A stretch of DNA of 64,000 bases from Ferruginibacter sp. HRS2-29 (lineage in GTDB: Bacteria; Bacteroidota; Bacteroidia; Chitinophagales; Chitinophagaceae): the NCBI RefSeq assembly GCF_024343615.1, contig NZ_RJUB01000162.1, positions 62,001 to 126,000 on the forward strand. Reading direction: 5' to 3'. This document shows, in pieces, positions 1,701 through 44,526 of the stretch; position 1 is the first letter of the stretch, and each line of letters begins with the position of its first letter. Under the pieces are notes generated by a model that was given only the letters and a program-made list of their open reading frames with translations, was not told the origin of the DNA and did not search any database. A program made the translations under genes and the position numbers.

Positions 1701-1793
1701 GATCAGAGATTAGGGATTAGACTTTGGATGGAATAAGTTTGAACCTAAATCCTGGTCTCTGATCACTAAACCCTAATCTCTAATCTCTAATCC
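1701..1793 (+). repeat. Word-repeat hairpin spacer (GATTAGGG family)
   Basis: The left arm at 1701-1720 (GATCAGAG then ATTAGGGATTAG) faces a right arm at 1757-1793 made of CTCTGATC, CTAAACCCTAAT and repeated CTCTAATC words. About 36 bp of unrelated sequence forms the loop. The right arm ends at the promoter box of pruA. It may end transcription of the efflux gene, but there is no T-run of the usual kind. The same words return at 25.6, 32.4, 33.5 and 43.0 kb. Confidence 0.75.
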
Positions 1794-1794
1794 T

Positions 1795-1802
1795 TATTTT
1801 TG
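1795..1802 (+). promoter_or_regulatory. Bacteroidota -7 box TATTTTTG of pruA
   Basis: A perfect TAnnTTTG element sits directly after the repeat arm and 19 bp before the pruA ATG, so the leader would be about 12-15 nt. The place of the -33 TTTG element is filled by repeat words. Confidence 0.55.
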
Positions 1803-1821
1803 CCATCTAAAAATTACCATT

Positions 1822-3456
1822 ATGCAATACGGAGATTTTTATTACCCGATGCCGGTCAATGAGCCTGTTCTTAACTACGCTCCCGGTAGTAAGGAAAAAT
1901 TAGCCCTTAAAGCGGCATTGAAAGAATTGAAAAGCACCAAAACGGACGTTCCGATGTACATCGGCTCGGAACAAGTTCGCACCGGAAATACAGTAGAAAT
2001 CCGTCCGCCGCACGAGCGTAAACATGTGCTGGGACAATTTCACCTGGGTGAAGCAAAACACGTGACCAAAGCCATCAACGCCGCATTGAAAGTGAAAGAT
2101 AAATGGGCGAACATGAGCTGGGAAAACCGTGCAAATATATTCCTGAAAGCTGCCGATCTGCTGGCAACCAAGTACCGGCCTTACATCAATGGAACAACGA
2201 TGCTCGGGCAAAGCAAGAATGCATACCAGGCTGAGATCGATGCTGCCTGCGAGCTCATCGATTTCCTGCGTTTCAACGTGCACTTCCTGAGTGATATCTA
2301 TCGCCAGCAGCCTATCAGCGGCGCGGGTATGTACAACCGCCTGGAATACCGTCCGCTCGAAGGGTTCGTATTCGCATTGACCCCCTTCAATTTTACGGCT
2401 ATAGGCGGAAACCTGCCTACCAGCGCCGCCATGTGCGGCAATGTGGTGATCTGGAAATGCGCCAATACACAGGTATACAGCGCACAGCTTTTCATGAAAG
2501 TATTAAAGGAAGCGGGTTTGCCGGATGGCGTCATCAACCTCGTATTCATCGACGGGCCAACGATCGGCGAAGTCATTTTCAATCACCCCGATTTTGCCGG
2601 GATACATTTTACCGGAAGCACCGGCGTATTCAATGGCATGTGGGCTACCATCGGGAAGAATATGAATACTTACAAAACTTATCCGAGGATCGTTGGCGAA
2701 ACCGGCGGTAAAGATTTTGTGATCGCTCACAGATCGGCCAATCCCGATGTAGTGGTGACCGCACTTGCCCGTGGTGCTTTTGAGTACCAGGGACAAAAAT
2801 GTTCTGCGGCTTCAAGGGCGTATATCCCTTCCAATATCGCAGCAGAAGTGAAGAAAAAACTGGTAGAGCAGGTGAAGACCATGAAAATGGGAACGGTGGA
2901 AGATTTTACCAACTTTATCAACGCGGTGATCGATGAAAAGAGTTTTGATAAACTGGAAGGATACATCAAAAATTCACGCAAGCGTGATAGCGGCGCCAAA
3001 ATATGGGTAGGGGGAAAATGCGATAAGACCGAAGGTTATTTCATCGAACCAACCATCATCGAAGCCAGCGATCCGCATTATGTAACGATGTGTGATGAAC
3101 TGTTTGGCCCGGTACTGACTGTTTACATTTATGATGAAAACAAATTTGAAGAAACCCTGAAGCTGGTAGACACCACTTCTTCTTATGCACTTACCGGTGC
3201 GGTGATAGCACAGGACCGCTTTGCGGTGGAACTGGCTACCAACAGGCTACGCAACAGCGCCGGTAATTTTTACATCAACGATAAGCCAACGGGTGCAGTA
3301 GTAGGGCAGCAACCATTCGGCGGTGCCCGTGCCAGCGGTACAAACGACAAGGCCGGCAGCCAGCTGAACCTTTATCGTTGGTTGAGTGCAAGGACAATTA
3401 AAGAAACATTCAATCCGCCAACGGAATATGGTTATCCGTTCATGCAGGAAAAGTAA
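1822..3456 (+). CDS. pruA: L-glutamate gamma-semialdehyde (P5C) dehydrogenase
   Basis: NAD-dependent aldehyde dehydrogenase for the second step of proline catabolism: it oxidises glutamate semialdehyde (from P5C) to glutamate in the cytoplasm. The 544-aa length matches the stand-alone ALDH4-type enzyme, not the bifunctional PutA. The general base lies in VGETGGKDFV (Glu-293) and the catalytic thiol in GQKCSAASRA (Cys-327). The N-terminal extension before the Rossmann core is typical of this subgroup. A TAnnTTTG box stands 19 bp before the ATG. No proline dehydrogenase gene is in the window. Confidence 0.93.
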   Translation: MQYGDFYYPMPVNEPVLNYAPGSKEKLALKAALKELKSTKTDVPMYIGSEQVRTGNTVEIRPPHERKHVLGQFHLGEAKHVTKAINAALKVKDKWANMSWENRANIFLKAADLLATKYRPYINGTTMLGQSKNAYQAEIDAACELIDFLRFNVHFLSDIYRQQPISGAGMYNRLEYRPLEGFVFALTPFNFTAIGGNLPTSAAMCGNVVIWKCANTQVYSAQLFMKVLKEAGLPDGVINLVFIDGPTIGEVIFNHPDFAGIHFTGSTGVFNGMWATIGKNMNTYKTYPRIVGETGGKDFVIAHRSANPDVVVTALARGAFEYQGQKCSAASRAYIPSNIAAEVKKKLVEQVKTMKMGTVEDFTNFINAVIDEKSFDKLEGYIKNSRKRDSGAKIWVGGKCDKTEGYFIEPTIIEASDPHYVTMCDELFGPVLTVYIYDENKFEETLKLVDTTSSYALTGAVIAQDRFAVELATNRLRNSAGNFYINDKPTGAVVGQQPFGGARASGTNDKAGSQLNLYRWLSARTIKETFNPPTEYGYPFMQEK

Positions 3457-3459
3457 GGG

Positions 3460-3545
3460 TAAATAAGGAATGAAAAATAAGGAATAAGGAAGTTGGATAT
3501 CTCATGATGACACTTTTTTTATTCCTTATTTTATGTTTCTTATTA
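3460..3545 (+). repeat. Word-repeat hairpin spacer (ATAAGGAATAAG family)
   Basis: Left words AATAAGGAATGAAAAATAAG and AATAAGGAA at 3463-3490 are answered by TTATTCCTTATTTT and TTTCTTATT at 3519-3545 around a 28-bp loop. The right arm runs into the first in-frame ATG (3533) of the next gene, which is therefore probably not its real start. Confidence 0.7.
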
Positions 3546-3574
3546 TTTATAAAAAAAACGTAACCATTGCCTAT

Positions 3575-4228
3575 ATGAAGATGTTATTGCTTTTAGTATC
3601 GCTTTTTTATCTCAATGATGCAAGTGCTCAATCATCCATCAATATAGATTATGTAAGTATCGCTACAGTTCCATCGGATTCTGTGATCACCGAAGTATTT
3701 AAAGACCGTTTTCCGCCGTATATCCGAATGGTGATCAACGATTCATTTTCGCTTTCCTTTTTTTTATCTCACATTGAAAAAAAAGTCTACCGGAAAGCCA
3801 TTATCGGCGATAAGCTGATCCATCATGCCGAATTCTCAAATTACATCACCGGCGAAACATTTTCTGAAAGTGACTGGCCGAAAAATAAACGATATCTCAT
3901 CCGTTACGATTCTTCCCGCATAAATAAATGGGAAATGATGGCCGGGGAGAAAATGATCCTTAATTACAGGTGTAAAGCGGTAACATCTGTCAATAAGAAT
4001 AATACAACAACCATCGTCTGGTATACAACTGAAATGAAGTTCAAACGGGGAGATCTGTTTTATCCTGGAGTTCCGGGTGTTGTACTTGAAGTGTACGATT
4101 ATGGATGGAACGGGACCGGTCAGTATATCCGGGCAATCTCTGCCAAAGAGAGTGGGCAGGTACTGGTAGCTCCGAAACATACAAAAATTGTAACATTTGA
4201 AGAAATAGGGATAAGAAATAAGAAATAA
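3575..4228 (+). CDS. GLPGLI family secreted protein
   Basis: An envelope protein of unknown role found in Bacteroidota. The family signature is near residue 165 as PGVPGVVLEV, a variant of GLPGLILE. I place the start at ATG 3575 because it opens a clean signal peptide (MKMLLLLVSLFYL, cut after SAQ). An in-frame ATG at 3533 would add 14 residues that are largely encoded by the upstream repeat arm. The last residues (IRNKK) and the stop are encoded by the ATAAGAAATAAG words of the next spacer, so the native C-terminus seems to have been replaced. Related proteins are often near TonB-dependent receptors; none is adjacent here. Confidence 0.72.
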   Translation: MKMLLLLVSLFYLNDASAQSSINIDYVSIATVPSDSVITEVFKDRFPPYIRMVINDSFSLSFFLSHIEKKVYRKAIIGDKLIHHAEFSNYITGETFSESDWPKNKRYLIRYDSSRINKWEMMAGEKMILNYRCKAVTSVNKNNTTTIVWYTTEMKFKRGDLFYPGVPGVVLEVYDYGWNGTGQYIRAISAKESGQVLVAPKHTKIVTFEEIGIRNKK

Positions 4229-4318
4229 GAAATGTTTAATAAGGAATAAGGAAGCAGGGCATCTTACAGGATGCACTTTCTTATTCCTTATTTTATATTT
4301 CTTATTCCTTATTTTCGT
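4207..4318 (+). repeat. Word-repeat hairpin spacer (ATAAGGAATAAG family)
   Basis: Tandem ATAAGAA and ATAAGGA words at 4210-4250 pair with TTCTTATTCCTTATTTTAT words at 4278-4315. The loop contains a second small inverted repeat (GCATC-TTACAG-GATGC). The left arm overlaps the 3' end of the GLPGLI gene and the right arm ends 10 bp before pyrR. Confidence 0.72.
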
Positions 4319-4326: not shown

Positions 4327-4836
4327 ATGAAAACGATCTTAGATAAGCAACAACTTCAGTTAACCATTCTCCGGCTGGCGCACCAGTTGCTGGAAAACAA
4401 CGACGATCTTTCCCAGGTGGTCTTCCTGGGTATTCAGCCAAGGGGTGTGCAGGTGAGCCAGCGGATCGCGACTCATATACAACTGCTCAGTAAAAATACA
4501 GAAGTGCAATACGGCGTGCTCGATATCACTTTTTACCGCGATGATGTGCGTGATGAATTGCATGTAGCCGGCAAGACCGATATTAATTTTTCCATTGAAG
4601 GGAAACGCGTGGTGCTGATCGACGATGTATTGTACACGGGCCGTACCATCAGGGCCGCATTGGACGCACTACAGGATTTTGGCCGGCCAAGTAAAGTTGA
4701 ACTTGCCGTGCTGGTCGACAGGCGCTTCAACCGCGAATTACCCATCCAACCCGATTTTTGCGGCATCGCCATCGATACGGTGGCTTCGCAAAAAGTAAAG
4801 CTGGAGTGGGACAAGGAGGAAGTTGTTCTTTATTAA
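4327..4836 (+). CDS. pyrR: PyrR: uracil phosphoribosyltransferase / pyr mRNA-binding regulator
   Basis: A type-I phosphoribosyltransferase of 169 aa, the standard PyrR length. The PRPP loop is VLIDDVLYTGRT at residues 96-107, and the N-terminal part FLGIQPRG is the usual PyrR substrate segment. In Firmicutes the protein binds pyr mRNA attenuators and also converts uracil plus PRPP to UMP. pyrB follows on the same strand and pyrE lies 3 kb further on, which supports a pyrimidine role. I see no obvious PyrR-binding anti-antiterminator in the spacer to pyrB, so regulation here is unproven. Confidence 0.92.
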   Translation: MKTILDKQQLQLTILRLAHQLLENNDDLSQVVFLGIQPRGVQVSQRIATHIQLLSKNTEVQYGVLDITFYRDDVRDELHVAGKTDINFSIEGKRVVLIDDVLYTGRTIRAALDALQDFGRPSKVELAVLVDRRFNRELPIQPDFCGIAIDTVASQKVKLEWDKEEVVLY

Positions 4837-4838
4837 AT

Positions 4839-4993
4839 TACGAATTATCAATTACGAATTATCAATTACGAATTACGAATTACGAATTTTTTCATACTAT
4901 CTTGGAATATTATTTACCGATCAGAAGATGGAATTGAGTAGAAAAAAGAAGCCAATAACAAAATTCGTAATTCGTAATTCGTAATTCTTAATT
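4839..4993 (+). repeat. Word-repeat hairpin spacer (AATTACGAATT family)
   Basis: Five to six copies of (A)ATTACGAATT / ATCAATTACG at 4841-4888 are mirrored by CGTAATTCGTAATT words at 4964-4992. The central ~75 bp is unrelated. The right arm leads directly into the pyrB promoter box. Confidence 0.78.
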
Positions 4994-5016: not shown

Positions 5017-5946
5017 ATGCAACTATCCACAAAACATTTACTCGGCATTAAAGACCTTTCCCCGAAAGACATTTCCCTTATTTTATCTACCGCTCAGCAA
5101 TTCAAGGAAGTATTACAACGTCCTGTGAAGAAGGTTCCATCGTTACGGGATGTCACCATCGTCAATCTTTTTTATGAAAATTCCACGCGTACACGCATCT
5201 CTTTTGAGCTGGCGGAAAAGCGGTTGGGAGCCGATACGATCAATTTTGCGGCTTCCGCTTCTTCTGTAAAAAAGGGCGAGACATTGCTCGATACCGTCAA
5301 CAATATCCTCAGTATGAAAGTGGATATGGTGGTGATGCGGCATAGCGCCAGCGGCGCCCCCCATTTCCTGGCGAAACACCTGCCCAACACCGGCATCGTG
5401 AACGCAGGCGACGGCATCAATGAACATCCTACCCAGGCTTTGCTGGACGCATTTTCCATTACAGAAAAAACCGGTGGACTTGAAGGAAAAAAGATATTGC
5501 TTATCGGGGATATCATGCACTCACGGGTTGCGCTCAGCAATATTTACCTGCTGAATAAAATGGGCGCCGAAGTGATGCTTTCCGGTCCGCCGACACTTAT
5601 ACCACCTTATATCAAAGAAGCGATGGGCGTGCAGGTAGAATACGATCTTAAAAAAGCCCTCAAATGGTGCGATGTAGCCAACGTATTGCGCATACAGCTT
5701 GAAAGGCAGAACCAGGTATTGTTTTCTTCCCTTCGGGAATACAATCTTTCTTACGGGGTAACAAAAAAACTGCTGCAGGAAGTGGATAAGGATATTGTGA
5801 TCATGCACCCGGGGCCAATCAACCGTGGGGTGGAAATAGACAGTGATGTGGCGGATGGCAACCAATCGATCATATTGCAGCAGGTGGAAAACGGGGTGGC
5901 AGTGAGGATGGCAGCGTTGTATCTGCTGGCGGGAACAGCGAATTAA
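5017..5946 (+). CDS. pyrB: Aspartate carbamoyltransferase, catalytic chain
   Basis: Condenses carbamoyl phosphate and aspartate to carbamoyl-aspartate, the committed step of pyrimidine synthesis. The carbamoyl-phosphate loop STRTR is at residues 56-60, HPTQ at 137-140, and HPGPINRG near 264. The length of 309 aa is typical. No regulatory chain (pyrI) follows, as in many Bacteroidota. The stop codon merges into the GGATAA repeat words that follow. Confidence 0.96.
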   Translation: MQLSTKHLLGIKDLSPKDISLILSTAQQFKEVLQRPVKKVPSLRDVTIVNLFYENSTRTRISFELAEKRLGADTINFAASASSVKKGETLLDTVNNILSMKVDMVVMRHSASGAPHFLAKHLPNTGIVNAGDGINEHPTQALLDAFSITEKTGGLEGKKILLIGDIMHSRVALSNIYLLNKMGAEVMLSGPPTLIPPYIKEAMGVQVEYDLKKALKWCDVANVLRIQLERQNQVLFSSLREYNLSYGVTKKLLQEVDKDIVIMHPGPINRGVEIDSDVADGNQSIILQQVENGVAVRMAALYLLAGTAN

Positions 5947-6059
5947 TGGATAACGGGACAATGGATAATGGATAAATCCTTTAACTTGTATAATATTCAG
6001 ATATTCGGATAACATTTAAACCGAAAACATTATCCATTATCAATTATAAAATTATCCAT
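5945..6059 (+). repeat. Word-repeat hairpin spacer (GGATAATGGATAAT family)
   Basis: Left words GGATAACGG and AATGGATAATGGATAA at 5948-5974 face ATTATCCATTATC, AATTATAAAATTATCCATT at 6029-6059. The right arm ends directly at the coaD start codon. Confidence 0.7.
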
Positions 6060-6061
6060 TC

Positions 6062-6547
6062 ATGAGAATCTGTCTCTTTCCCGGAACCTTCGATCCCGTA
6101 ACGCTGGGCCACATCGATATCATCAACAGGGCGCTTCCTTTATTTGATAAAGTGATCATCGGCATCGGCCGCAATGTAAACAAGCAACCGATGTTCAGCG
6201 AACAGCAAAGGCTGCAATGGCTCAAAGATATTTACCGCAATAACAACAAGGTGCAGGCGGTGGTTTACGAAGGGCTTACTGTTGATTGCTGCAAAGAATA
6301 CAATGCCAATTTCATCCTCCGCGGCATCCGTTATGTGAATGATTTCGAATACGAAAAAGCCATCGCCGATATGAACCGCAGCCTTGCAGAACACATCGAA
6401 ACGATCTTCCTTACCTGCCTGCCGCAATACACTTCCGTAGCAAGTACGCTGGTACGCGATGTGCTCAAGAATGGCGGCGATGTAGCGCAGTTTTTACCAG
6501 AAGAAGTGAATCACTCTATTTTTAAAGACAAGAATGGCGCAGAATAA
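6062..6547 (+). CDS. coaD: Phosphopantetheine adenylyltransferase
   Basis: Catalyses the penultimate step of coenzyme A synthesis, the adenylation of 4'-phosphopantetheine. The nucleotidyltransferase signature GTFDPVTLGH is at residues 8-17, and the C-terminal TSVASTLVRDV segment is the other family hallmark. Length (161 aa) is standard. The last 14 bases overlap the start of the hotdog-fold gene, which suggests translational coupling. Confidence 0.95.
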   Translation: MRICLFPGTFDPVTLGHIDIINRALPLFDKVIIGIGRNVNKQPMFSEQQRLQWLKDIYRNNNKVQAVVYEGLTVDCCKEYNANFILRGIRYVNDFEYEKAIADMNRSLAEHIETIFLTCLPQYTSVASTLVRDVLKNGGDVAQFLPEEVNHSIFKDKNGAE

Positions 6548-6998
6548 TAATGAGCCGATCTGGTTCAATAAACAACTCTCTACAAAAGATCTTTCTGGCG
6601 TTACACCCGATACCATGGGGCAGCACCTGGGCATGGAATTCGTGGATATCGGCGTGGATTTTTTAAAGATGCGCATGCCGGTCGATCAGCGTACCCATCA
6701 GCCTTACGGTTTATTACATGGCGGCGCCAGTTGCGCCCTCGCCGAAACCGTCGGCAGCGTAGCCTCTTTTTTGGTGATCGATACCTCAAAATTCATCTGT
6801 GTAGGATTGGAAATAAATGCCAATCACCTGCGGGGCATCCGCACAGGATTTGTTACCGCAACGGCCACACCTTTACATCTTGGCGGTACCACGCATGTGT
6901 GGGATATCAAAATTCAGGATGAGGAAGAAAAACTGGTTTGTGTAAGCAGGCTTACGGTGGCGATTTTGGTGAAAAAGTCAATAGTCAATAGTCAATAG
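6534..6998 (+). CDS. Hotdog-fold thioesterase (PaaI / 4HBT type)
   Basis: A small cytoplasmic acyl-CoA thioesterase of 154 aa. The PaaI-type active-site helix HGGASCALAE begins at His-62. The substrate is unknown; DHNA-CoA, phenylacetyl-CoA or a housekeeping acyl-CoA are possible. It overlaps coaD by 14 bp, so the pair could link CoA synthesis with CoA-ester turnover. The C-terminal SIVNSQ and stop codon are encoded by a run of AGTCAAT words belonging to the next spacer, so part of the original tail is probably lost. Confidence 0.82.
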   Translation: MAQNNNEPIWFNKQLSTKDLSGVTPDTMGQHLGMEFVDIGVDFLKMRMPVDQRTHQPYGLLHGGASCALAETVGSVASFLVIDTSKFICVGLEINANHLRGIRTGFVTATATPLHLGGTTHVWDIKIQDEEEKLVCVSRLTVAILVKKSIVNSQ

Positions 6999-7080
6999 TG
7001 AAACCTTCAACGTTCATACTGCCTGGCAGTTCTGTAAAAACTGCAGTTCAATTCGTGTAATCCGTAATAATTCGTGTAAT
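6976..7080 (+). repeat. Word-repeat spacer (GTCAATAGTCAATAG and ATTCGTGTAAT families)
   Basis: Three AGTCAAT words (6978-6999) form the gene end. They are followed by a small hairpin (CTGCCTGGCAG) and by two ATTCGTGTAAT words with one CCGTAAT at 7053-7080. It lies between convergent genes. Two word families are combined here and the arms do not match each other. Confidence 0.55.
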
Positions 7081-7737: not shown

Positions 7738-7875
7738 AATACTAATGGATAATAGTATAATGGACAATGGACAATGTTTTCAAAATGAAAATTGTAATGA
7801 GTGGTTAGCAATTATAATCCTGACCTTCGTAAAACAATTTATCCATTATCCATTATACTATTATCCATTATAAAC
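7738..7875 (+). repeat. Word-repeat hairpin spacer (GGATAATGGATAAT family)
   Basis: Words ATGGATAATAG, TATAATGGACAATGG at 7744-7773 face CCATTATCCATTATACTA and TTATCCATTATAA at 7842-7873. This is the second copy of the family seen before coaD. Here it separates two divergent starts, so it cannot serve only as a terminator. Confidence 0.72.
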
Positions 7876-8905: not shown

Positions 8906-9172
8906 GGAATAAGAAAGGTAAAATAAGGATAAGAAAGTGGGAGCTTTGAACGGTTTAGGCTGGTTTGAAGCTCCCCATTTCATTTAAATAAGGAATAAGA
9001 AAAGTAGAATAAGGAATACAAAAGTGGGGAGTTTTGAACGGTTGCTGAACCGTATCAAAACTCCCCACTTTTGTATTCAGCAGGTTCAGGAGGGTGGAAC
9101 TGCTACGGAATTTACTTTCTTATTTCTTATTTTATCTTCCTTATTTCAAATTTATCTTCCTTATTTTCTATT
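8900..9172 (+). repeat. Compound word-repeat spacer with a 30-bp hairpin
   Basis: ATAAGGAATAAGAAA words recur at 8901-8936, 8988-9018 and, as TTCTTATTTCTTATTTTATC, at 9117-9170. Between them lie two related stem-loops. The second, 9015-9079, is a 30-bp stem (GAATACAAAAGTGGGGAG... with its complement) broken by one bulged base around a GCTG loop. The first, 8938-8978, repeats the theme more loosely (GGGAGCTT/AAGCTCCC). The element separates convergent genes. Confidence 0.8.
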
Positions 9173-27163: not shown

Positions 27164-27192
27164 TCGCTTAAATTGCATTCAGAAATATACAT

Positions 27193-29247: not shown

Positions 29248-29346
29248 GAAATAATAAATAAGGAATAAGAAAGTGAGTTCGCATTTTCGGACGCTGCTTG
29301 TTTATTCCATTGTTAATTATTAATTATAATTATTAATTATTAATTG
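29248..29346 (+). repeat. Word-repeat spacer (ATAAGGAATAAG and TTAATTATTAATT families)
   Basis: AAATAAGGAATAAGAAA words follow the rnr stop. After a short GC-richer middle come TTAATTATTAATTATAATT words at 29312-29345, a nearly self-complementary run ending 6 bp before the next start. Confidence 0.62.
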
Positions 29347-29351
29347 TCTCA

Positions 29352-30319: not shown

Positions 30320-30421
30320 TTACCACAAAGACCCAAAGCGACAAAGAAGCACAAAGGATTTCTATTGACTCTTTTGTTTTTATTCTTCGTGAACCTTTGT
30401 GTCTTCGGGCCTTCGTGGTCG
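30320..30421 (+). repeat. Word-repeat hairpin spacer (ACCACAAAGACCCAAAG family)
   Basis: ACCACAAAGACCCAAAGCG and AAGCACAAAGG at 30320-30357 face CCTTTGTGTCTTCGGGCC and TTCGTGGT at 30392-30420. The words (ACAAAG, GACCCAAAG) differ from those of all other spacers in the window, but the architecture is the same. Confidence 0.72.
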
Positions 30422-32393: not shown

Positions 32394-32395
32394 AG

Positions 32396-32492
32396 ATGAG
32401 CGATCAGGGTTGAATAAGTCTTAATGATTTGAAAAATTTCAAAAAGATACACCTAAACCCTCCACCCTAATCTCTAATCCCAAACCTGAAAC
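32396..32492 (+). repeat. Word-repeat spacer (CCCTAATCTCTAATCC family)
   Basis: The left side (GATCAGGGTTGAATAAG) is a weak remnant. The right side (ACCTAAACCCT, CACCCTAATCTCTAATCCC at 32451-32480) is clear and runs into the promoter box of the next gene. Confidence 0.55.
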
Positions 32493-32495
32493 CTG

Positions 32496-32503
32496 TACTT
32501 TTG
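32496..32503 (+). promoter_or_regulatory. Bacteroidota -7 box TACTTTTG of the Smr gene
   Basis: A perfect TAnnTTTG ending 4 bp before the ATG at 32508. The start of transcription would fall at the start codon. No -33 element is visible; repeat words occupy that place. Confidence 0.5.
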
Positions 32504-32507
32504 CAAA

Positions 32508-33518: not shown

Positions 33519-33598
33519 TTTAGGGATCAGGGTTTAGGTATCTTTCGGTTCAACGTCTAAACCCTGATCCCTAAACCCTAATCTTTAATCTTTAACTA
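33519..33598 (+). repeat. Word-repeat hairpin (TTTAGGGATCAGGGTTTA, perfect 18-bp stem)
   Basis: The arms at 33519-33536 and 33558-33575 are perfect complements. A further CCTAATCTTTAATCTTTAAC tail reaches into the nhaA 3' end (stop 33585-33587) and encodes its last residues. It lies between convergent genes and could act as a bidirectional terminator. Confidence 0.85.
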
Positions 33599-34733: not shown

Positions 34734-34735
34734 GA

Positions 34736-34862
34736 GATATGAGTTATAAGTTATAAGTTATGAGTTGCGGACACTATGGGATTAGAAATCGGAATTTAAG
34801 AAGATAATCAGGAATTCATCGCTAAGTGTAATTCGTTACTCCTCACTTATCACTTATCACTC
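34736..34862 (+). repeat. Word-repeat hairpin spacer (GAGTTATAAGTTAT family)
   Basis: ATGAGTTATAAGTTATAAG and TTATGAG at 34739-34765 are partly mirrored by CTCACTTATCACTTATCAC at 34842-34862. The stop codon of the YitT gene falls in the last word. Confidence 0.6.
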
Positions 34863-35831
34863 TTACCCCTGCAACCTCCGTTTCTTGATCATCCCTCCCT
34901 TCATATCCTTCACGCTGCTCATCACCACAAAAGCATTCGGATCTATCTTTTCCACTTCGAGCTTCAGCTTGCTTACTTCAAGACGGGTGATGATGGTATA
35001 CACGATCTTCATTTCATATAAAAATTTTTCGCCGCTTTTGCCATAACCACGTTCGCCTTTGTAAACCGTAATGCCCCGGCCGAGTTTTTCGGTGATCATG
35101 CGGGTGATCTTATCCGCTTTTACAGAAATGATGGTAACACCGGTATATTCTTCGATGCCTTCTATGATGAAATCGACCGTTTTGGAAGCTGCAAGATACG
35201 TCAGCATGGCGTATAGCGCTGTTTCGACGCTCAGCAACCAGGCGGAAGACGCAAAGATAATGATGTTGACGATCAGGATCACATCGCCGATGGTAAGCCC
35301 CGAGCGTTTGCTGATGCCGATGGCCAGTACTTCGGTGCCATCGATCACGGCTCCGCCGCGAACAGATAAGCCGATGCCTGCTCCAAGGAAGAAACCACCA
35401 AATACCGCTACGAGTAATTTATCATGCGTCACTTCGGGATAGGGGATGAACGCGACAGCCAGCGCAAGCCCGGTGATAGCGAAAGCCGTCTTGATCGCGA
35501 ATTTTCGGTCGATGATCGTATAACCCAACAAGATGAACGGAACGTTGATGAGTATGATGAGCATTGATAAGCTGATGCCGGTGAGTTGTGATATCAGTAA
35601 TGAAATACCGGTGGCGCCGCCATCGAGAAAGTGATTGGGAAGGAGGAAGCCGCGTAAGCCAAAACCCGCTGCCAGTATTCCCAATGTGATGAGGAAAAGA
35701 TCTTCGAGAAATTCGCGGACTTCAAGCCTGCGTTCTTTACTGCGTCGGGCATTGCTCAGCTTCGATAGTTCGGTATCTTCATTTTCCTTACCAAAAATGA
35801 GATCGAATAATATAGATCGTTTTCTGCCCAT
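34863..35831 (-). CDS. YitT family membrane protein (DUF161 + DUF2179)
   Basis: 322 aa. A charged N-terminal stretch of ~50 residues precedes five to six membrane helices (from about 50 to 215). A C-terminal cytoplasmic DUF2179 domain follows (TGVTIISVKADKITRMITEK, GRGITVYKGERGYG). YitT proteins are widespread and poorly characterised; transport is suspected. The stop codon is the first codon inside the GTGATAAG word spacer. It is probably a single gene unit. Confidence 0.85.
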   Translation of the reverse strand: MGRKRSILFDLIFGKENEDTELSKLSNARRSKERRLEVREFLEDLFLITLGILAAGFGLRGFLLPNHFLDGGATGISLLISQLTGISLSMLIILINVPFILLGYTIIDRKFAIKTAFAITGLALAVAFIPYPEVTHDKLLVAVFGGFFLGAGIGLSVRGGAVIDGTEVLAIGISKRSGLTIGDVILIVNIIIFASSAWLLSVETALYAMLTYLAASKTVDFIIEGIEEYTGVTIISVKADKITRMITEKLGRGITVYKGERGYGKSGEKFLYEMKIVYTIITRLEVSKLKLEVEKIDPNAFVVMSSVKDMKGGMIKKRRLQG

Positions 35832-36297: not shown

Positions 36298-39200
36298 TTA
36301 TTTTGATTGAATGGGCAATGAAAAATAAAAGGTCGACCCTTTATCTTTTTCGCTTTTTACCCAGAGTTTTCCCTCATGCAGGGACATGATCTCGTTTACG
36401 ATGAACAACCCGATGCCAAAGCCGGGAAATGTTTTTTCATCTTTACCTGATACTCTATAAAAACGTTCGAATATTTTTCCCTGGTCTTCTTCCGCAATTC
36501 CGATACCATAATCCTTTATCGAAACAACGGCCATGTTATTTTCATCTTTCTCCAGCCTTACCAATACTTCATCAGCTTTGGGCGAATACTTGAAGGCGTT
36601 GGTAAAAAGATTCAGCAATACCTGAGAGATCCTTTCCCTGTCTGCATTTACGGGCACTTTTAAATCCCGTTCGAAAATGATGCGATGGCTTTTGGAAGCG
36701 GCTTCCATATCCATGATCGTATCTTTTATAAGATCGTTTAATAAAAAAGATTCCTTGTTGAGTGGAAGGCTTCCGCGTTCGATCTTGGTTACATCCAGGA
36801 GATCGGAAACAAGGTTGGTCAATTTTGTTACCTGTTTATCTACCGTCGCCAGCGCATCTTCACTGTTCGCATGGGTTTTCATCAGCAACTGCACATATCC
36901 TTTGATGGTGGTCACCGGTGTTTTCAATTCATGGTTGGCCATTTTGATGAAATCATTTTTTTGCTGCTCATGCTTTTTGATCTCATCGATATCCGTGCTG
37001 GTGCCCACCCACATGGTGATCCTGTCATCTTCATCTTTTTGCGCCGTGGCCCGGCTCAGCTGCCAACGGTAGATACCATCCTTTCTCCTGAACCTGTGCT
37101 CAAATAAGAACGGCTCACCTGTATTGACACAATGCATCCATTTGCGGATATTCTCCTGCCTGTCATCAGGATGGATAACGCTGAGCCAGCCACCGGCCGA
37201 CATCTCCTCCGGTGTGAGCCCTGTATATTCGAATACCGCATCATTGAAATAAGACAATATCCCATCCGGGCCGCCGGTCCACACAAACTGCGGCATCGAG
37301 TTGGCGAGGAAGCGGTAGCGTTGCTCATTTCTTTCCAGTTCTTCGAGCGCCAGTTTTTTCTCCGTAATATCCAGGACGGTTCCGGAAAACCTGTACGCTG
37401 TTTTTTCTTCTGTAAACTGCGCTTTGCCTTTGGCATGTACCCAGCGGAGTTTATTGCCGGGCAAACCCACGATACGATATTCCGCATCATAATTTTCAGC
37501 GATCGCGGGATCGAGTGCACGTTGCATTTTTTCCAGCGCAACAGGCATATCATCCGGATGAATTCTTGAAAAGAAAAGTTCGGTGGTGATCATTTCTTCC
37601 GGGGGCACGCCAAACAAGTCGCGGGAAGCGTTGTCCCATATCATCACACCCGTAGCAGGCGTGTAATCCCAGGTGCCGAGTTCGCTGGATAAAGCGGCGA
37701 TGCGCAACCTGCTTTCACTTTCTTCAATCATTTGCTGGTACTGCTTTTGAGCGGTAAGGTCGCGGAGCGTACCGATGAACTTCAACGGTTGTTCCTTTTC
37801 ATCGTAAAATAATTTTCCTGTAGCTTCCACCCAATGAATACTTCCATCTTTCCAGTTGATGCGGGTAGAGTAGTGCATCAGGCCGGTTTCCAAACCTTTT
37901 TTAAAAGCTTCGTCCCTGATCGCTCTATCCTCGGGATGCAGCGTCGCCAATAGTTCTTCATGAGTAGGCCTGGCATTTTTATCAAGGCCGACTATTTCCA
38001 GGTATCTTGAAGAATAATTGATCTCTCCTGTTTGCAAATTTATTTCCCAGGTACCAAGATCGCTGGCATTGAGGACGATATTGAGTTGTTCATTGTTTTC
38101 AGCGATCAGCCGTTCGCTTTGTTTTTGCCGGCTGATATCACGTGCTATCTTGGAAGCGCCGATCACTTCGCCCTGGGAATTTTTAACCGGTGAAGTGGTC
38201 AGGGAAATATCCAGCAGCTGACCATCTTTGGTCACCCTTTGTGTTTCAAAATGATGAATGAGGTTGCCCTGGCGTAACTGCTCCACGATAAGTGCTTCTT
38301 CATCCAGTTTATGGGGTGGTACAAGCACCGTGATCGATTTGCCGATGATATCTTCGGCTTTGTACCCGAATATCCTTTCGGCAGCACCGTTCCAGCTGGT
38401 GACGGTACCGTCCAGCAATTTGCTGATGATAGCATCATCGGAATGGCGTACGATGGACGCCAGCCGGGCACTTTGTTCTTCGGCATTTTTTTGTTGTGTG
38501 ATATCGGCCAATGTTCCCAGCATACGCACGGGCTGTTGATTTTCATCAAATATCACTTTGCCGCTGGTGCGTATCCAGCGGATAGGGCCGTCAACAGGCA
38601 GTATACGGGCTTCGTAAGAATAATTACCTGTTTTAAATGCTTTCTCAAAAGCAGGTTCAACAAGAGCGATGCGGTCGCCGGGATGTATGATCTTTCGCAT
38701 AGCCGCGTGCGTTAGCCGCGTGGAAGGATCGTGCCCGAAAATGACGGCTAGCCTCGGCGAATGAATCACTTCATAGGTGAGGAGGTTGAGATCCCAGGTG
38801 GCCAGCTGTGTTCCTTCGGTTGCCAGCAGGAGACGGTCGGCCGCATCTTTTATCTGCTGCCGCGTTTCTACTTTTTCAGTCACATCATTTACTGTGACCA
38901 TGATGCCTGAAATTTTTTTATCGGCATCAAACAGTGGCGCATATTCATAATCCAGGTAAAAATTTCTCATTCCGCCCGGTCCGTTTACCAGGGCGAGTGC
39001 TTCGTTAGCCTTGTGAGGAGTTCCTGTTTCCAGCACTTCGTTCATCAGGATGGGAAATTCCTGTCCCTTCAGCTCGGGAAATATTTCGAGCAGCGGTTTG
39101 CCCTGTACTTCTTCCAGCGTGCGGCGCCAGATATTGCGCAGTAACGTGTTATTGGCCAGTTCTACAATCAGCTCTTTTCCTCTGAAAATAGCCATGGCTA

Positions 39201-40536
39201 CGGGTGATTGGGTGACGAGGTCGCGAAATTGTTTTTCACTTTCCTGTAACTCCTGTTTTGCCCGTACCTGCCCGGTAACTTCAGTAGCGATCACGATGAT
39301 GCCACTGATACTGTTGTCAGAATCTTTCAGCGGGTGATAAACAAAATTGAAATACGTGGTTTCTTTTTTACCATGGCGATGGAGCGGCACTTCAAATTCA
39401 ATCCCGTAATACGGTTCACCGGTAAGTAATATTTGGGTGAGCAAACTGCCCACTTTATCTTTCACTTCGGGCATGGAATAAAACAAGGATCGGCCGATGA
39501 AATTTTCTTTTTTTCGGTCAACGATCTGCAGGTAGGTTTCGTTGGCCATTTCCACAATAAAATCTTTCCCCTGGAGGATGACGATGCCGATGGGGGCCTG
39601 CGAAACAATGTTGCGGAATTTTTCATCGCTCCTGCGTAATGCCAGTTCAATGTTCCTGCGCTCGTTCACATCCTGGAGAATGCCGCTGAATTTATAGGGG
39701 ATTCCCTCTTCGTTGAACAATGCTTTTCCTTTTGCCAGCACCGTGCGTACCTCGCTGGTGCCGGTTTTTTTGATGCTGTATTCGAGTTCGTAATTGCCAC
39801 CCGACGAAGGCCTTAATGCCTCGCTGATGGCATCGGTTACTTTTTCCACATCTCCCGGAATGATGGCATCGAGTGCATCTTTGAGGTCTATTTCATCCTG
39901 GGGTTGCAGCCCGAACCACTTTTTGAGGCGGTCGTTCCCCACAAAACGGTTGGTTTCCGGATTCAGGTCCCAGGTACCCAGTTCGGCGGAATCGATGGTA
40001 AATTGCAGCTGGTGACTATCGTCGGCGATCTTTTTAACAGCCTTTACCTTTTCGGTAGTTTCGTTACATACTACCAGTACGCCGTTTATAGCGCCTGTTT
40101 CGTCCATTACCGGGCTATAGCTGAAAGTCCAGTATACATCATCCAGTTTTCCATTACGGTAAATGGGGATGAACTGGTCTTCGTTCCAGGTAGCTTCGCC
40201 GGTATTCAGCACCTGGTCTATGAGTGGCTGGATGACGGGCCATATTTCCGGCCAGCAGTCTTTTCCCTTCTGGCCCAGTGCCCGCGGGTGTTTGCCTTCA
40301 ATACCAAGGCTGGGGTGGTAGGCGTCGTTGTAAAACTGTATGAGGTCTTTTCCCCACCATAAAAACATCGGGAACCTGGAATTGAGTAAAATGCTGAGGG
40401 TGGTACGCAGGCTTTGCGGCCAGCCAGAGGGATGCCCGAGGGGCGTTTGAGTCCAGTCTTTTTCTCTGGTAAGGCTTCCCATTTCCCCGCCACCGGATAA
40501 AAATGGATAGTCTTTTTCAGGAAACAGTTTATGCAT
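36298..40536 (-). CDS. Histidine kinase with nine PAS-type sensor modules, no transmembrane segment
   Basis: 1412 aa and apparently cytoplasmic. A GAF/PAS-like first module (about 1-170) is followed by eight PAS/PAC units. These open with sequences such as IDSAELGTWDLNP, IVSQAPIGIVILQG, LVTQSPVAMAIFRG, ATEGTQLATWDLNL, IVRHSDDAIISK, VLNASDLGTWEIN, LSSELGTWDY and FLANSMPQFVWTGG. The HisKA box ANHELKTPVTTIKG (phospho-His near 1200) and the ATPase domain (NAFKYSP, KDYGIGIAEED, GFGIGLFIV) close the protein. The signals are unknown; none of the PAS units shows an obvious haem or flavin signature. It forms an operon with the CheY-like gene. Confidence 0.9.
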   Translation of the reverse strand: MHKLFPEKDYPFLSGGGEMGSLTREKDWTQTPLGHPSGWPQSLRTTLSILLNSRFPMFLWWGKDLIQFYNDAYHPSLGIEGKHPRALGQKGKDCWPEIWPVIQPLIDQVLNTGEATWNEDQFIPIYRNGKLDDVYWTFSYSPVMDETGAINGVLVVCNETTEKVKAVKKIADDSHQLQFTIDSAELGTWDLNPETNRFVGNDRLKKWFGLQPQDEIDLKDALDAIIPGDVEKVTDAISEALRPSSGGNYELEYSIKKTGTSEVRTVLAKGKALFNEEGIPYKFSGILQDVNERRNIELALRRSDEKFRNIVSQAPIGIVILQGKDFIVEMANETYLQIVDRKKENFIGRSLFYSMPEVKDKVGSLLTQILLTGEPYYGIEFEVPLHRHGKKETTYFNFVYHPLKDSDNSISGIIVIATEVTGQVRAKQELQESEKQFRDLVTQSPVAMAIFRGKELIVELANNTLLRNIWRRTLEEVQGKPLLEIFPELKGQEFPILMNEVLETGTPHKANEALALVNGPGGMRNFYLDYEYAPLFDADKKISGIMVTVNDVTEKVETRQQIKDAADRLLLATEGTQLATWDLNLLTYEVIHSPRLAVIFGHDPSTRLTHAAMRKIIHPGDRIALVEPAFEKAFKTGNYSYEARILPVDGPIRWIRTSGKVIFDENQQPVRMLGTLADITQQKNAEEQSARLASIVRHSDDAIISKLLDGTVTSWNGAAERIFGYKAEDIIGKSITVLVPPHKLDEEALIVEQLRQGNLIHHFETQRVTKDGQLLDISLTTSPVKNSQGEVIGASKIARDISRQKQSERLIAENNEQLNIVLNASDLGTWEINLQTGEINYSSRYLEIVGLDKNARPTHEELLATLHPEDRAIRDEAFKKGLETGLMHYSTRINWKDGSIHWVEATGKLFYDEKEQPLKFIGTLRDLTAQKQYQQMIEESESRLRIAALSSELGTWDYTPATGVMIWDNASRDLFGVPPEEMITTELFFSRIHPDDMPVALEKMQRALDPAIAENYDAEYRIVGLPGNKLRWVHAKGKAQFTEEKTAYRFSGTVLDITEKKLALEELERNEQRYRFLANSMPQFVWTGGPDGILSYFNDAVFEYTGLTPEEMSAGGWLSVIHPDDRQENIRKWMHCVNTGEPFLFEHRFRRKDGIYRWQLSRATAQKDEDDRITMWVGTSTDIDEIKKHEQQKNDFIKMANHELKTPVTTIKGYVQLLMKTHANSEDALATVDKQVTKLTNLVSDLLDVTKIERGSLPLNKESFLLNDLIKDTIMDMEAASKSHRIIFERDLKVPVNADRERISQVLLNLFTNAFKYSPKADEVLVRLEKDENNMAVVSIKDYGIGIAEEDQGKIFERFYRVSGKDEKTFPGFGIGLFIVNEIMSLHEGKLWVKSEKDKGSTFYFSLPIQSK

Positions 40537-40651
40537 GTAACATTGGCTTTGCAGTAAGTTTTTTTTATGGATACTTTCCCTTTAAAGATAGCGCATAAAA
40601 AATGAAAATGCGGTCGTAAAGGGAGTTGTAGCAAATTGTGTGCCTGTTGGA

Positions 40652-40762
40652 GTTATAAGTTCTGAGTTATAAGTGATAAGTTGCGGGTGGCGGAACTTGC
40701 AATTCATAGCCTATAACTTCTTACTTATAACTCATAACTTAAAACTCCCAACTTATAACTAT
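40652..40762 (+). repeat. Word-repeat hairpin spacer (GAGTTATAAGTTAT family)
   Basis: GTTATAAGTTCTGAGTTATAAG and TGATAAG at 40652-40682 face CTATAACTTCTTACTTATAA, CTCATAAC, TTATAAC words at 40711-40760. The right arm ends at the 5' end of rnpB. Confidence 0.72.
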
Positions 40763-40770: not shown

Positions 40771-41161
40771 TTCTATCAGCCGGCTATCGTTCCAACCCCG
40801 GTTGGAAAGGAAAGTCCGGACAGCAAAGGGCGACACACCGGTTAAGCGCCGGCTTCCCGCGAAGGCGGGAAAGAGAAAGTGCCACAGAAAATAACTACCT
40901 CCTCAGTAATGTGGGGGAAAAGGTGAAAATGTGAGGTAAAAGCTCACGGTCCCGGATAGTAATATCGGGGATGGGTAAACCTTGTGTGCTGTAATGCCAC
41001 GTATATCAACGTTCGAGGGCGGCTCGTCCGATCCCCGCAGTATTGTGGGGAACGTTGAAGGGTAGGCAGCAAGATTGTAACAGTAATGTTGCAGCTAGAT
41101 AAATGATGGCCGTTCTCACAGTAATGTGAGGATAACAGAATCCGGCTTATGGCTGATAGAA
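40771..41161 (+). ncRNA. rnpB: RNase P RNA, class A
   Basis: The catalytic RNA of tRNA 5'-end processing. The universal GGAAAGTCCGGACA is at 40808-40821 and its 3' counterpart ACAGAATCCGGCTTAT at 41135-41150. The terminal helix P1 is formed by TTCTATCAGCC (40771) with GGCTGATAGAA (ending 41161). Several helices are capped by a GUAA tetraloop in the context CAGTAATG (40911, 41083 and 41120 regions), the GNRA loops expected in class A RNase P. TATTTTCG just upstream is a near-match to the -7 box. Confidence 0.95.
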
Positions 41162-41174
41162 TTTTTAAACACTA

Positions 41175-41239
41175 ATTACACGAATTATCTAAGAAACCCC
41201 GGAGGTTTTCAAAACCTCCGGGGTTTTAATTCGTGTAAT
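41175..41239 (+). terminator. rnpB terminator nested in an ATTACACGAATT repeat
   Basis: AAACCCCGGAGGTTTT-c-AAAACCTCCGGGGTTTT is a 16-bp perfect stem (41194-41227). It is framed by the perfect 12-bp inverted repeat ATTACACGAATT (41175-41186) / AATTCGTGTAAT (41228-41239). A near-copy of stem and left word is at 44456-44525. Confidence 0.9.
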
Positions 41240-41248
41240 CCCTTTTGG

Positions 41249-42262: not shown

Positions 42263-42284
42263 AGCAATTACATTTAGATATAAT

Positions 42285-42370
42285 AATAAATAAGAAAGAT
42301 ACAATAAGGAATAAGGAAGTTAAACGTTTCACGAAATTTACTTACTCACTTCTATTTTCTTATTACTTAT
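42285..42370 (+). repeat. Word-repeat hairpin spacer (ATAAGGAATAAG family)
   Basis: AATAAATAAGAAAG and AATAAGGAATAAGGAAG at 42285-42319 face CTATTTTCTTATTACTTATT at 42352-42371. The right arm encodes the last residues (FNK) and stop codon of the acetyltransferase on the minus strand. Confidence 0.72.
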
Positions 42371-42953: not shown

Positions 42954-42959
42954 GAAGGA

Positions 42960-43060
42960 GATTAGAGATTAGAGATTAGAGATTAGGGTTTAGGAAGTTT
43001 AGAGAGTTTAGGAGGTTTAGTGTTTTCAACTTAACCCTAATCCCTAAACCCTAAACTCTT
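42960..43060 (+). repeat. Word-repeat hairpin spacer (GATTAGAGATTAG family)
   Basis: Four AGATTAG words and TAGGGTTTAGG at 42960-42996 are answered by TTAACCCTAATCCCTAAACC and CTAAACT at 43030-43057. The right arm contains the stop codon and last six codons of the next minus-strand gene. Confidence 0.78.
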
Positions 43061-43510
43061 CACCATTGCAGCTACAATTTTATCGATGGGCAATGTTACA
43101 GATGCTTCTGAAAAATCATCCCAATCAATGAACCGGAAGGTTTCTGTTTCACCGGTTTCTGTGTACACCCGCATTTGCGCATCGTCGAAGTCGAATGCTG
43201 AAAGCCTTAACGGGACTGCAATCGGCGCCAATGGTTTTACATAATAATAAATAGAGATGATCTGGTGATCGGGATTGAAGGCGCTCTGCTGGTAAAAATC
43301 GGTGGTATACAGATGGCCGGTAATTTCTACCGGGAGGTTCATTTCTTCCATGAATTCACGCCTGAGGCAATCGATGGTTCCTTCGCCGATCTCTAATCCG
43401 CCGCCGCAAAATTTGGTGATATAACTGCCGCGGATAAATTCGTCGCTTACCAGCACCTGCTTTTGTTCATTGATCAATATCCCATAAACACGTATGTTGA
43501 ATGAAGGCAT
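43037..43510 (-). CDS. Nudix hydrolase
   Basis: 157 aa. The Nudix box runs from Gly-37 to Leu-59 (GGLEIGEG...RREFMEEMNL), with all acidic residues kept but Asn in place of the penultimate Gly. It follows corA with a single base between stop and start, so the two are coexpressed. The C-terminal SLGFRD and stop are encoded entirely by GTTTAGGGATTAG repeat words, so the original end is missing or the frame was extended into the repeat. The substrate is unknown. Confidence 0.85.
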   Translation of the reverse strand: MPSFNIRVYGILINEQKQVLVSDEFIRGSYITKFCGGGLEIGEGTIDCLRREFMEEMNLPVEITGHLYTTDFYQQSAFNPDHQIISIYYYVKPLAPIAVPLRLSAFDFDDAQMRVYTETGETETFRFIDWDDFSEASVTLPIDKIVAAMVKSLGFRD

Positions 43511-43511
43511 G

Positions 43512-44450
43512 TTATCTTTTATTTCTGCGTATATAATTCGCGATCACAAAACCGAGGATGATCAGGCAGATGGCTACCGGGATCCAGAAAGCGTAATGCG
43601 ATTCCTGGAAGGGGAGTGGTACGTTCATTCCGTAAATGCTGGCGATCAACACCGGCACGCTCAAAAAGATGGTGAGTGTTGATAATCGCTTCAATACCTG
43701 GTTCTGGTTATTGCTGATGATACTGGCATATGCATCGAGCGTACTTACGAGAATGTTGGTGTAAGTATTCGCGGTTTCCAATGCCTGTGAGGTTTCGATA
43801 ACAAGATCTTCAAGAAAATCTCTTTCATCTTCGTTCATGTGCAGGAAATTGGTACGGGCGAGTTTCATCATCAGGAGTTCGTTGCTGCGCAAGGCCGTAA
43901 CAAAATACACCAGGCTTTTCTGGATGCGCATCAGCTCGAACAATTCTTCATTCCCGTTGGAGTCATACAGTTTTTGTTCCAACGCATTCCTGCGCTGATT
44001 GATCTCTTTCAGATGCTCCTGGAAATTGGTGGTGATCTTTTCAAATATTTTCAGCACCATCATATTTTTCTTATCCGGATTGCGGTTTTGAAAACTGTTG
44101 AGGAATTTTTTGATGGCTTCGTTTTCAAATGAATTTACGGTAACGATCTGGCCTGTTGTAAGAATGATACAAATGGGAATGGTGATGTAAAACGCATCAC
44201 TTTCGTTGAACGAATTATTTTCTGTGGGTGTTTTGATCACGATCAGTTTTACATCGTCTTCAATTTCATAACGGCTCCTTTCATCAATATCCAATGAATC
44301 TTTGAGGAAGTCGATCGGGATATTCAAGGCATTGCTCAGCTCGGTAAATTCTTCCTGTTTGAGCGGGGGCAATACATTCACCCAACTGCCGGAAACAGGT
44401 TTGTCGATGGCGAGTGTTTTACGTTCCTCTATTTTGAAGTATTGAATCAT
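43512..44450 (-). CDS. corA: CorA family divalent cation (Mg2+) channel
   Basis: 312 aa. A long N-terminal cytoplasmic funnel domain is followed by two C-terminal membrane helices, with the selectivity motif YGMNVPLP near residue 275 between them. CorA forms a pentamer in the inner membrane and imports Mg2+ or other divalent ions. It is the first gene of a pair with the Nudix hydrolase, whose reaction would need Mg2+. ATTACACGAATT words lie just before the start. Confidence 0.92.
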   Translation of the reverse strand: MIQYFKIEERKTLAIDKPVSGSWVNVLPPLKQEEFTELSNALNIPIDFLKDSLDIDERSRYEIEDDVKLIVIKTPTENNSFNESDAFYITIPICIILTTGQIVTVNSFENEAIKKFLNSFQNRNPDKKNMMVLKIFEKITTNFQEHLKEINQRRNALEQKLYDSNGNEELFELMRIQKSLVYFVTALRSNELLMMKLARTNFLHMNEDERDFLEDLVIETSQALETANTYTNILVSTLDAYASIISNNQNQVLKRLSTLTIFLSVPVLIASIYGMNVPLPFQESHYAFWIPVAICLIILGFVIANYIRRNKR

Positions 44451-44455
44451 TTTGG

Positions 44456-44526
44456 ATTACACGAATTTTTACGAATTACACGAATTATGCCCCCAACCCC
44501 GGAGGTTTTCTAAACTTCCGGGGTTT
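44456..44526 (-). terminator. Terminator-like copy of the CCCCGGAGG element with ACACGAATT words
   Basis: AACCCCGGAGGTTT (44495-44508) pairs with AAACTTCCGGGGTT (44512-44525) with one G.U, and is nearly identical to the rnpB terminator stem. Three ACGAATT/ATTACACGAATT words (44457-44488) lie on the corA side. It follows the dapF stop by 7 bp and so ends the dapF unit. Confidence 0.8.

Follow-up and report, generated by a model that had tools for sequence, protein, structure and literature searches.

Fold-back elements with tandem heptamer arms in the gaps of a Ferruginibacter genome

The gaps between genes in one stretch of the Ferruginibacter sp. HRS2-29 genome raise the question of how hairpins made of many different words can have a single shape. 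The stretch, called the window below, comprises 64,000 nucleotides (contig NZ_RJUB01000162.1, positions 62,001 to 126,000; G000:C161:62001-126000) of a genome of 5.07 Mb in 161 contigs. An initial annotation, made from the letters of the window, had described tandem copies of a short word followed, across a loop, by copies of its reverse complement in about twenty gaps, and inverted-repeat and tandem searches bear this out between positions 1694 and 44487. We propose, with moderate confidence, that these hairpins are dispersed fold-back repeats, similar to REPINs (hairpins formed by doublets of repetitive extragenic palindromic, or REP, sequences), whose tandem arms drift, and that dispersal together with slippage accounts for them with no need of a host function. 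A single kind of dispersed repeat, its arms changing, may account for most hairpins better than ten separate families.

The arms and words of the window were found with Tandem Repeats Finder (TRF) and inverted-repeat searches; L-numbers denote fetched stretches of DNA. The genome was sampled as the window and 60 further 20-kb tiles, 1.264 Mb in total (25% of the genome), which were drawn from long contigs and are not a random draw; the first sample covers 864 kb, including the window, and the held-out sample 400 kb. Genes were called crudely as the longest open reading frames. All counts exclude units that have an inner period of 1-3. The contig-end copy L135:572, whose core is identical to that of L064:300, is excluded from the coupling of arm lengths and rare variants, the flank comparison of whole copies, the AATTANN module, the core-end motif, the mismatch count and the target-duplication test on 84 pairs; it is retained among the 318 arrays and in the counts of gap types, inversion, polarity and phase, gene-edge distances, unpaired arrays and units, and word links.

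Period, layout and position

Words of seven letters dominate the gaps. In the window, 29 arrays have period 7, compared with a mean of 1.0 and a maximum of 5 in 30 order-2 Markov shuffles, and each of the periods 5, 6 and 8-11 yields 0-2 arrays. There are 16 period-7 clusters, about 13 of which have inverted arms by eye, the exceptions being 6976-6999, 25539-25688 and 29228-29345; an inverted-repeat search of positions 1-46000 gave 38 pairs, 25 of which were listed. The rest of the window (44527-64000), unlike the first 44 kb, holds no period-7 arrays. At the stricter threshold used for comparing periods, the first sample contains 236 arrays of periods 4-15, of which 144 have period 7, 44 more have period 14 and 48 have any other period. 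With 188 arrays of period 7 or 14 against these 48, the 7-nt tandem unit stands far above chance, and a Markov control of 464 kb produced no period-7 array. A looser threshold gives 230 period-7 arrays in the first sample and 88 in the held-out one; the 318 arrays fall in 215 clusters, which extrapolates to about 860 clusters per genome. They are mainly intergenic: 201 of the 230 lie outside the crude gene calls, although called coding DNA makes up 88% of the sample.

Genome-wide, words are also far more frequent than their reversed controls: ATAAGGAATAAG has 39 matches, its reversed control 4, and an AATTACG 24-mer has 356 overlapping matches, its control none. The word families which that annotation listed belong to one class insofar as nearly all are heptamers; ATTACACGA (9 bp), ACCACAAAG and the arms at 24191-24374 are not heptamer arrays and stand outside it. 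The density of period-7/14 arrays is 21.8 per 100 kb here and 0-10 in ten relatives of the genus (20-100 kb each). The nearest relative, L009, has 7 such arrays in 23 kb, matching the richness of this genome.

Each element has a tandem array of a heptamer W as one arm, then a core, then an arm of the reverse-complemented word, and spans 50-192 bp (median 113, 84 pairs). Neighbouring arrays are inverted relative to each other in 88 of 98 pairs overall, that is, in 65 of the 70 first-sample pairs no more than 200 bp apart, 57 of those with words at most one base apart, and in 23 of 28 pairs of the held-out sample. The loops of 64 inverted pairs measure 12-150 nt. The initial annotation had given unrelated loops of 20-90 bp; most cores are indeed without a full copy, but the range is wider, and core ends and a few whole cores recur. 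The polarity is without exception for every word that occurs more than once. The 23 inverted pairs held out comprise 17 with W followed by its reverse complement, none in the reverse order, 2 with listed words as W + W and 4 with one unlisted word. AATTACG hairpins of this polarity have 115 overlapping matches genome-wide, compared with 3 in the opposite order, all from a single place. The phase of the AATTACG arrays is fixed as well: 19 of 26 start exactly with AATTACG, and 23 of 26 finish with GAAT or GAATT on the core side. The two arm lengths of one locus vary independently (r = 0.15), and rare variants are common to both arms of a locus beyond permutation within the word (p = 0.0012).

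The arrays are flush with genes. Judged by purine content, 169 of 208 arrays have a word that reads away from the nearer gene, as do 47 of 61 held-out arrays, judged by the word list. Arrays lie at a median distance of 2 nt from stop codons (n = 127) and 23 nt from starts (n = 81), with 3 nt (n = 37) and 24 nt (n = 38) in the held-out sample, and many extend into the stop codon. Arrays lie between tandem, divergent and convergent genes, as the initial annotation had stated: they occur in 47/194 >>, 35/124 <<, 35/94 convergent (><) and 18/105 divergent (<>) gaps of the first sample, and in 12/44, 17/58, 11/34 and 11/36 of the held-out ones, respectively. An enrichment in convergent gaps, present in the first sample, is gone in the held-out one and was discarded.

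Copies, remnants and changing words

Unpaired arrays are remnants of elements. There are 84 whose word is one of 27 listed; of these, 36 have a decayed inverted partner scoring at least 9 on the core side and 1 has one on the gene side, and a reversed-word control found 1. Whole elements also recur. L067:19310 and L068:842 have both arms and core in common (80% across the core), and so have L073:9817 and L056:9800 (77%); the proteins that flank the copies of these pairs have no significant matches to each other. These two pairs, together with one group of six, are homologous copies that lie at unrelated loci and end in inverted repeats, as in miniature inverted-repeat transposable elements (MITEs). 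AATTACG elements group by their core end, TGAACCC being exact in 5 of 34, while a few start like GCGNCGCAAG and a few like GTCGCACGATC (by eye). A GATCGCAGATT...AAAGGGATGAAGG module that resembles the window arms at 24191 continues several of the AATTANN arms, and in seven word families a TTCGGTTTG-type motif stands next to the arm (11 of 203, 0.8 expected).

The initial annotation had called the words unrelated to each other, which does not hold: they are nearly all 7 bp long, and the 61 distinct words in 1.264 Mb have 97 one-base links, compared with 61 +/- 6 (maximum 86) for letter-shuffled words. The group of six, whose members have the same core end, shows such a change within one kind of element. 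Allowing up to 2 mismatches, TTCTTCGCTACGATA has 11 matches, of which six are this group, three lie in called genes and two in gaps without such arms. Four of the six elements have right arms of the CCAGCAT, CCAGCAA or CCAGTAA type. In the right arm in L061, the two units nearest the core are CCATTAT, with CCAGCCT and CCAGCAT further out, and the right arm in L070 consists of six CCATTAT units. We read these two arms as a variant unit spreading through the arm, with L061 apparently in mid-replacement. The 1.2-kb flanks of the six loci have no mutual match apart from a 23-letter one shared by two loci.

The gaps of the nearest relative allow a direct comparison. L009 is a Chitinophagales metagenome bin (JAATFP010000094.1), the nearest among 93 genus genomes searched (79% over a 966-bp gene). 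It is syntenic with window 22258-46241, with proteins 54-96% identical and two genes 81% and 80% identical in DNA. We read ten of its gaps by eye, with coding DNA only about 80% identical: the word is kept in both arms in two, in part in two, and the others differ or have no element. In the gap at 26989-27192, L009 keeps the word in both arms (23/27 and 29/29 identical), and the alignment of the core is not above shuffles (p = 0.07). The gap at 32394-32507 keeps GTTTAG-type words, with 92 of 113 positions aligned over the whole gap; at 29248-29351 the AAATAAG left arm is kept and the right arm is of another word; and at 30318, L009 retains only the initial ACCACA and has AATGGTC on the right. 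At window position 43511 a single base pair lies between two genes, where L009 carries a complete GTTTAG/GATTAG fold-back element of about 130 bp; either state may be the older. The element in gap 42954 is absent from L009, and the gap at 44451 holds different elements in the two genomes, that of L009 having the core end AAATCTTCAAAG, as do AATAGTC elements here. Beside the RNase P gene the words differ between window and L009. The comparison means that elements come and go as units, that arms outlast cores and that the two arms can switch word separately.

Two gaps hold extra genes here relative to L009. The genes at 24378-25535, 33585-34733 and 34863-35831 are absent from the syntenic L009 gaps and are bounded by the inverted-repeat elements at 24191-24374, 25539-25688, 33518-33595 and 34732-34861, as if gene gain and elements went together. 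Further away within the genus, about 48 gaps from 18 of 20 fetched genomes have mostly other content by eye; this set leaves out one long gap and includes a stretch of L121 that is no true gap and a mislabelled gap in L122. One of these genomes, G039 (L115, about 2830-3102), has long GGATACT/GGATGCT arrays between the orthologues of 27193-29247 and 29352-30317, with a stretch of about 32 nt that occurs twice (by eye).

Origin, possible function and known repeats

We propose the following course of events. The elements would be copied as units by a machinery of some kind and would be left in gaps, those inserted into genes being removed. The core would decay by mutation, and the tandem arm would be kept together longer, most simply via homogenisation by slippage. 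Slippage may occasionally spread a mutated unit through an arm, so that the word drifts one base at a time; the many words of one shape would then be mostly snapshots of drifting arms, and most elements would share one history. Of the two origins that the initial annotation had envisaged, the spread of a palindromic tandem unit is supported by the whole copies at unrelated loci, by the filled and empty junction in L009 and by the decayed partners. The other, slippage and template switching, is supported by the independent arm lengths and the replacement of words within an arm, but a purely local process is insufficient because the same word, polarity and end phase are found at many loci.

Several results weigh against this proposal. 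Of 61 cores, 23 have some non-self match at E <= 0.05 in the first 864 kb, but these matches are mostly short pieces or leftover words, near full length only in the named cases. The TTCGGTTTG-type motif was picked post hoc, and the held-out sample lends it small support (2 of 71, 0.19 expected). The 23-letter match between two flanks of the group of six points the same way, as does the largest word cluster, which at 49 of 61 words is no larger than those obtained with letter-shuffled words (mean 40, maximum 51). A plainer test of arm coupling by alignment score finds none (p = 0.27). Target-site duplications are absent at 84 pairs, where direct flank repeats of 3-7 nt are not above shuffled flanks, although slippage may blur the ends. 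No mobiliser was found among Y1 transposases: this genome has 3 matches to them and ten genus relatives have 0-6, unrelated to array density. Finally, the right arm that is 29/29 identical beside coding DNA of about 80% identity could mean selection on the arms.

This last observation bears on the possibility, which we regard as less likely, that the hairpins are cis-elements under selection, whether terminators, insulators, bidirectional 3'-end structures or gene borders that bind proteins, and that one word can partly stand in for another because only shape or spacing matters. Selection of this kind would suit the greater nearness of arrays to stops than to starts and the outward reading of the word, both seen again in the held-out sample, as well as the rare variants common to the two arms of a locus. 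Flushness with stop codons is expected equally if insertions elsewhere are removed, however, and the convergent excess of the first sample, which would also suit, did not recur. RNA hairpins under selection would show more G-T than A-C mismatches on the transcribed strand, whereas the mismatched arm pairs in co-directional gaps are G-T in 7 cases, A-C in 16 and other in 60, so that no RNA-pairing signal is seen. The arms of L070 and of the hybrid at 25539 no longer match, and several L009 gaps have no element or another word. The terminator or insulator role suggested in the initial annotation finds no support in these tests, given the lack of a G-T excess, the diverged arm words and the presence of elements between divergent genes, while the 29/29 arm leaves room for it. 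It is improbable, in our view, that polymerase slippage and template switching made every hairpin on the spot, with no dispersal and with the 7 bp set by the polymerase; a polymerase origin of the period has been proposed for heptamer repeats (PMC4679880, PMC4692102). The dominance of period 7, the independent arm lengths and the scarcity of full-length second cores are what a local origin would produce, but it does not account for one polarity and end phase of the same word at many loci, for whole elements and core ends that recur, or for the whole element that fills a 1-bp junction in L009.

Two further mechanisms would supply an enzyme. If the elements were REPINs proper, inverted REP doublets would be moved by the Y1/RAYT transposases of the genome, and the doublet layout, degenerate spacers and singlet remnants do correspond to those described for REPINs (PMC3116915). 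The REPIN pattern of the same repeat flanking its cognate RAYT gene is not seen at two of the three Y1 matches, which were examined together with about 1.4 kb to either side: their own unrelated palindromes adjoin them (GTTCCTACGGAAC; GGGTTGCAACCC), and the heptamer arrays in these stretches are about 780 bp from the Y1 gene in L259 and about 450-490 bp from it in L260. Since the number of Y1 genes does not track array density either, a link of the heptamer elements to Y1/RAYT is not supported, and we consider this explanation very improbable. The palindromes themselves (L259 1880-2300, L260 900-2300) are likely a separate REP system. Still harder to credit is a templated repeat-adding enzyme, a telomerase-like reverse transcriptase that writes heptamers; the fixed phase of the AATTACG arms would fit it, but units vary and alternate inside one array, and homologous elements carry different words. 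Returning to dispersed repeats with drifting arms, an extension that we think unlikely is that the copying machinery reads shape and the 7-bp periodicity and not sequence, so that the word drifts freely and one lineage gives dozens of word families; the heptamers of Xanthomonas, cyanobacteria and Beggiatoa would then be frozen single-word stages.

The initial annotation knew of no named element family with many sequences and one shape, but the shape is known: it occurs with a single word in Xanthomonas and with different arms in REPINs. In the account by Rehm et al. 2015 (PMC4692102) of the Xanthomonas and Nostoc heptamers GGGAATC and GGGGA(C/T)T, the repeats are tandem, lie in gaps and mostly have four units; GGGAATC repeats form inverted convergent pairs (70 in Xcc and 75 in Xac), with the gene nearer the 5' side of the word, and are flush with or overlap stop codons. 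Layout, nearest gene, stop-codon flushness and four-unit preference are all found here as well. The Xanthomonas repeats have one G-rich word capable of G-quadruplexes, whereas this genome has 61 words, and in 237 of 318 arrays the word is without GG or CC; homologous copies in this genome are shown to differ in their words. The elements are a many-word, mostly non-G-quadruplex variant of the GGGAATC kind. Rehm et al. connected the preference for four units with G-quadruplexes (PMC4692102). Here, 81 arrays have 2-3 units (a class clipped by the detection limit), 88 have 3-4, 100 have 4-5 and 22 have 5-6, and words without GG or CC show an equal fall past four units (86 arrays of 4-5 units, 18 of 5-6); thus, G-quadruplexes cannot explain the preference here.

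The other known systems share parts of this picture. In REPINs, 93% of doublets are inverted, spacers are degenerate and singlets are remnants (Bertels and Rainey 2011, PMC3116915); the inverted doublets, the less conserved variable spacer and the remnants have counterparts here, whereas the arms are tandem heptamers instead of REP palindromes and do not lie directly beside the two Y1 genes read. The TAACTGA heptamers of Beggiatoaceae, cyanobacteria and Bacteroidetes (MacGregor 2015, PMC4679880) are likewise intergenic, tandem and patchy over phyla, but a single word is repeated there in direct orientation, mostly before start codons, and related words are rare, unlike the many related words in inverted pairs here. 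Calothrix, a cyanobacterium, has three tandem heptanucleotides (PMC4692102) and so resembles this genome in having several; inverted layout and polarity characterise the elements here, and the passages on the Calothrix heptamers are silent on both. The BrickBuilt MITE of Porphyromonas gingivalis (PMC4596501), one family with a 23-nt unit and 19 copies, is also a tandem repeat within an intergenic inverted-repeat element in Bacteroidota, with the repeat inside the element; here it forms the arms. We found no description of many-word inverted heptamer elements in the open-licence literature. Heptamer repeats of bacteria have long been unexplained, and words incapable of G-quadruplexes question the link to four units. 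Six homologous loci with different words and an intermediate show how word families can arise, and the origin of heptamer repeats becomes testable within one organism; they also urge caution, as word-based repeat families may be stages of a single lineage.

Heptamer repeats of cyanobacteria go by the name of short tandemly repeated repetitive (STRR) sequences. Of 296 genomes from the phylum of the window, 6 contain the AATTACG 24-mer, this one included; of 146 from the cyanobacterial phylum, 13 contain it, with up to 293 overlapping matches and no match of the reversed control; three of these cyanobacteria have 17-34 period-7/14 arrays per 100 kb. A vocabulary common to the two phyla was considered and dropped, as 2 words are shared (one being AATTACG, the basis of the choice of genomes), compared with 3 for reversed words and a mean of 2.4 for letter-shuffled ones; AATTACG in both phyla may be a coincidence. 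Relatives share 12 words with this genome, compared with a shuffled mean of 4.0 (maximum 10) and 6 in the reversed control, AATTACG being included partly by choice (L174 was picked for it). The gene-edge rule is weak in relatives (24/40) and absent over all words in the three cyanobacteria (36/84), whose G-rich words follow it in 19 of 28. The 24-mer also occurs in 29 viral-contig stretches (L212-L240).

Elements of the window and neighbouring genes

From left to right, the window begins with a fold-back element with GATTAGG/GAGATTA arms between tandem genes (1694-1799), followed by AATAAGG arms that are 85% complementary (3462-3544) and AATAAGA/AATAAGG arms with a small inner hairpin (4200-4314). 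The AATTACG element at 4836-4993 has arms of 7.6 and 4.6 units, the left one beginning at the stop codon of the upstream gene. AATGGAT arms at 5942-6063 have the right core end TTTTCGGTTT, and AATGGAC/AATGGAT arms at 7743-7870 lie between divergent genes. Between these two, a lone left arm of AGTCAAT on the plus strand (6976-6999) reaches into a stop codon, with AAACCTTCAACG on its core side and no right-hand array. At 8983-9149, weakly paired AATAAGG arms (71%) enclose a perfect inner hairpin (9014-9078).

Beyond the gene for a 1781-aa protein with IgGFc-binding, PKD and type IX secretion (CHU_C) domains (15676-21021), the inverted repeat GATCACAGATT...GGGGATTACACAGAT at 24191-24374 is not heptameric and is 98% complementary; the module after several AATTANN arms elsewhere is similar to it. 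The hybrid at 25539-25688 has non-complementary arms, with nine TGGTGAA units on the left and 4.4 CCTAAAC units on the right. The element with AGTCAAT/AGTGAAT arms at 27014-27163 lies between divergent genes, and L009 keeps both of its arms and not its core. A second hybrid (29228-29345) has AAATAAG on the left, kept in L009, and AATTATT (or, shifted by one letter, ATTATTA) on the right, where L009 has another word. The non-heptamer inverted words ACCACAAAGACCC...CTTTGTGTC...GGCCTTCGTGGTC at 30322-30420 were judged to pair by eye. GTTTAGG/GATTAGA arms (33518-33595) enclose a core containing TTTCGGTT, and the partly paired arms at 34732-34861 are ATGAGTT on the left and TCACTTA on the right.

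Further to the right, fold-back arms of AGTTATA (40650-40760) are followed by short ATTACACGAATT arms of a 9-bp word around a GC-rich inner hairpin (41174-41241), by a left arm of AATAAGA/AATAAGG with a weak right arm (42276-42318) and by GAGATTA/GTTTAGG arms (42958-43059), the L009 gap of which has no heptamer element. The last is a ATTACACGA array of a 9-bp word on the plus strand (44456-44487), which has no clear right arm and faces a different element in L009. A search of the window against Rfam returned an RNase P gene, one tRNA and nothing else. The former is a bacterial class A RNase P RNA gene (RF00010, 236 bits) at 40772-41164, just right of the AGTTATA element. To the left of that element, a 1412-aa histidine kinase with multiple PAS domains is encoded at 36298-40536.

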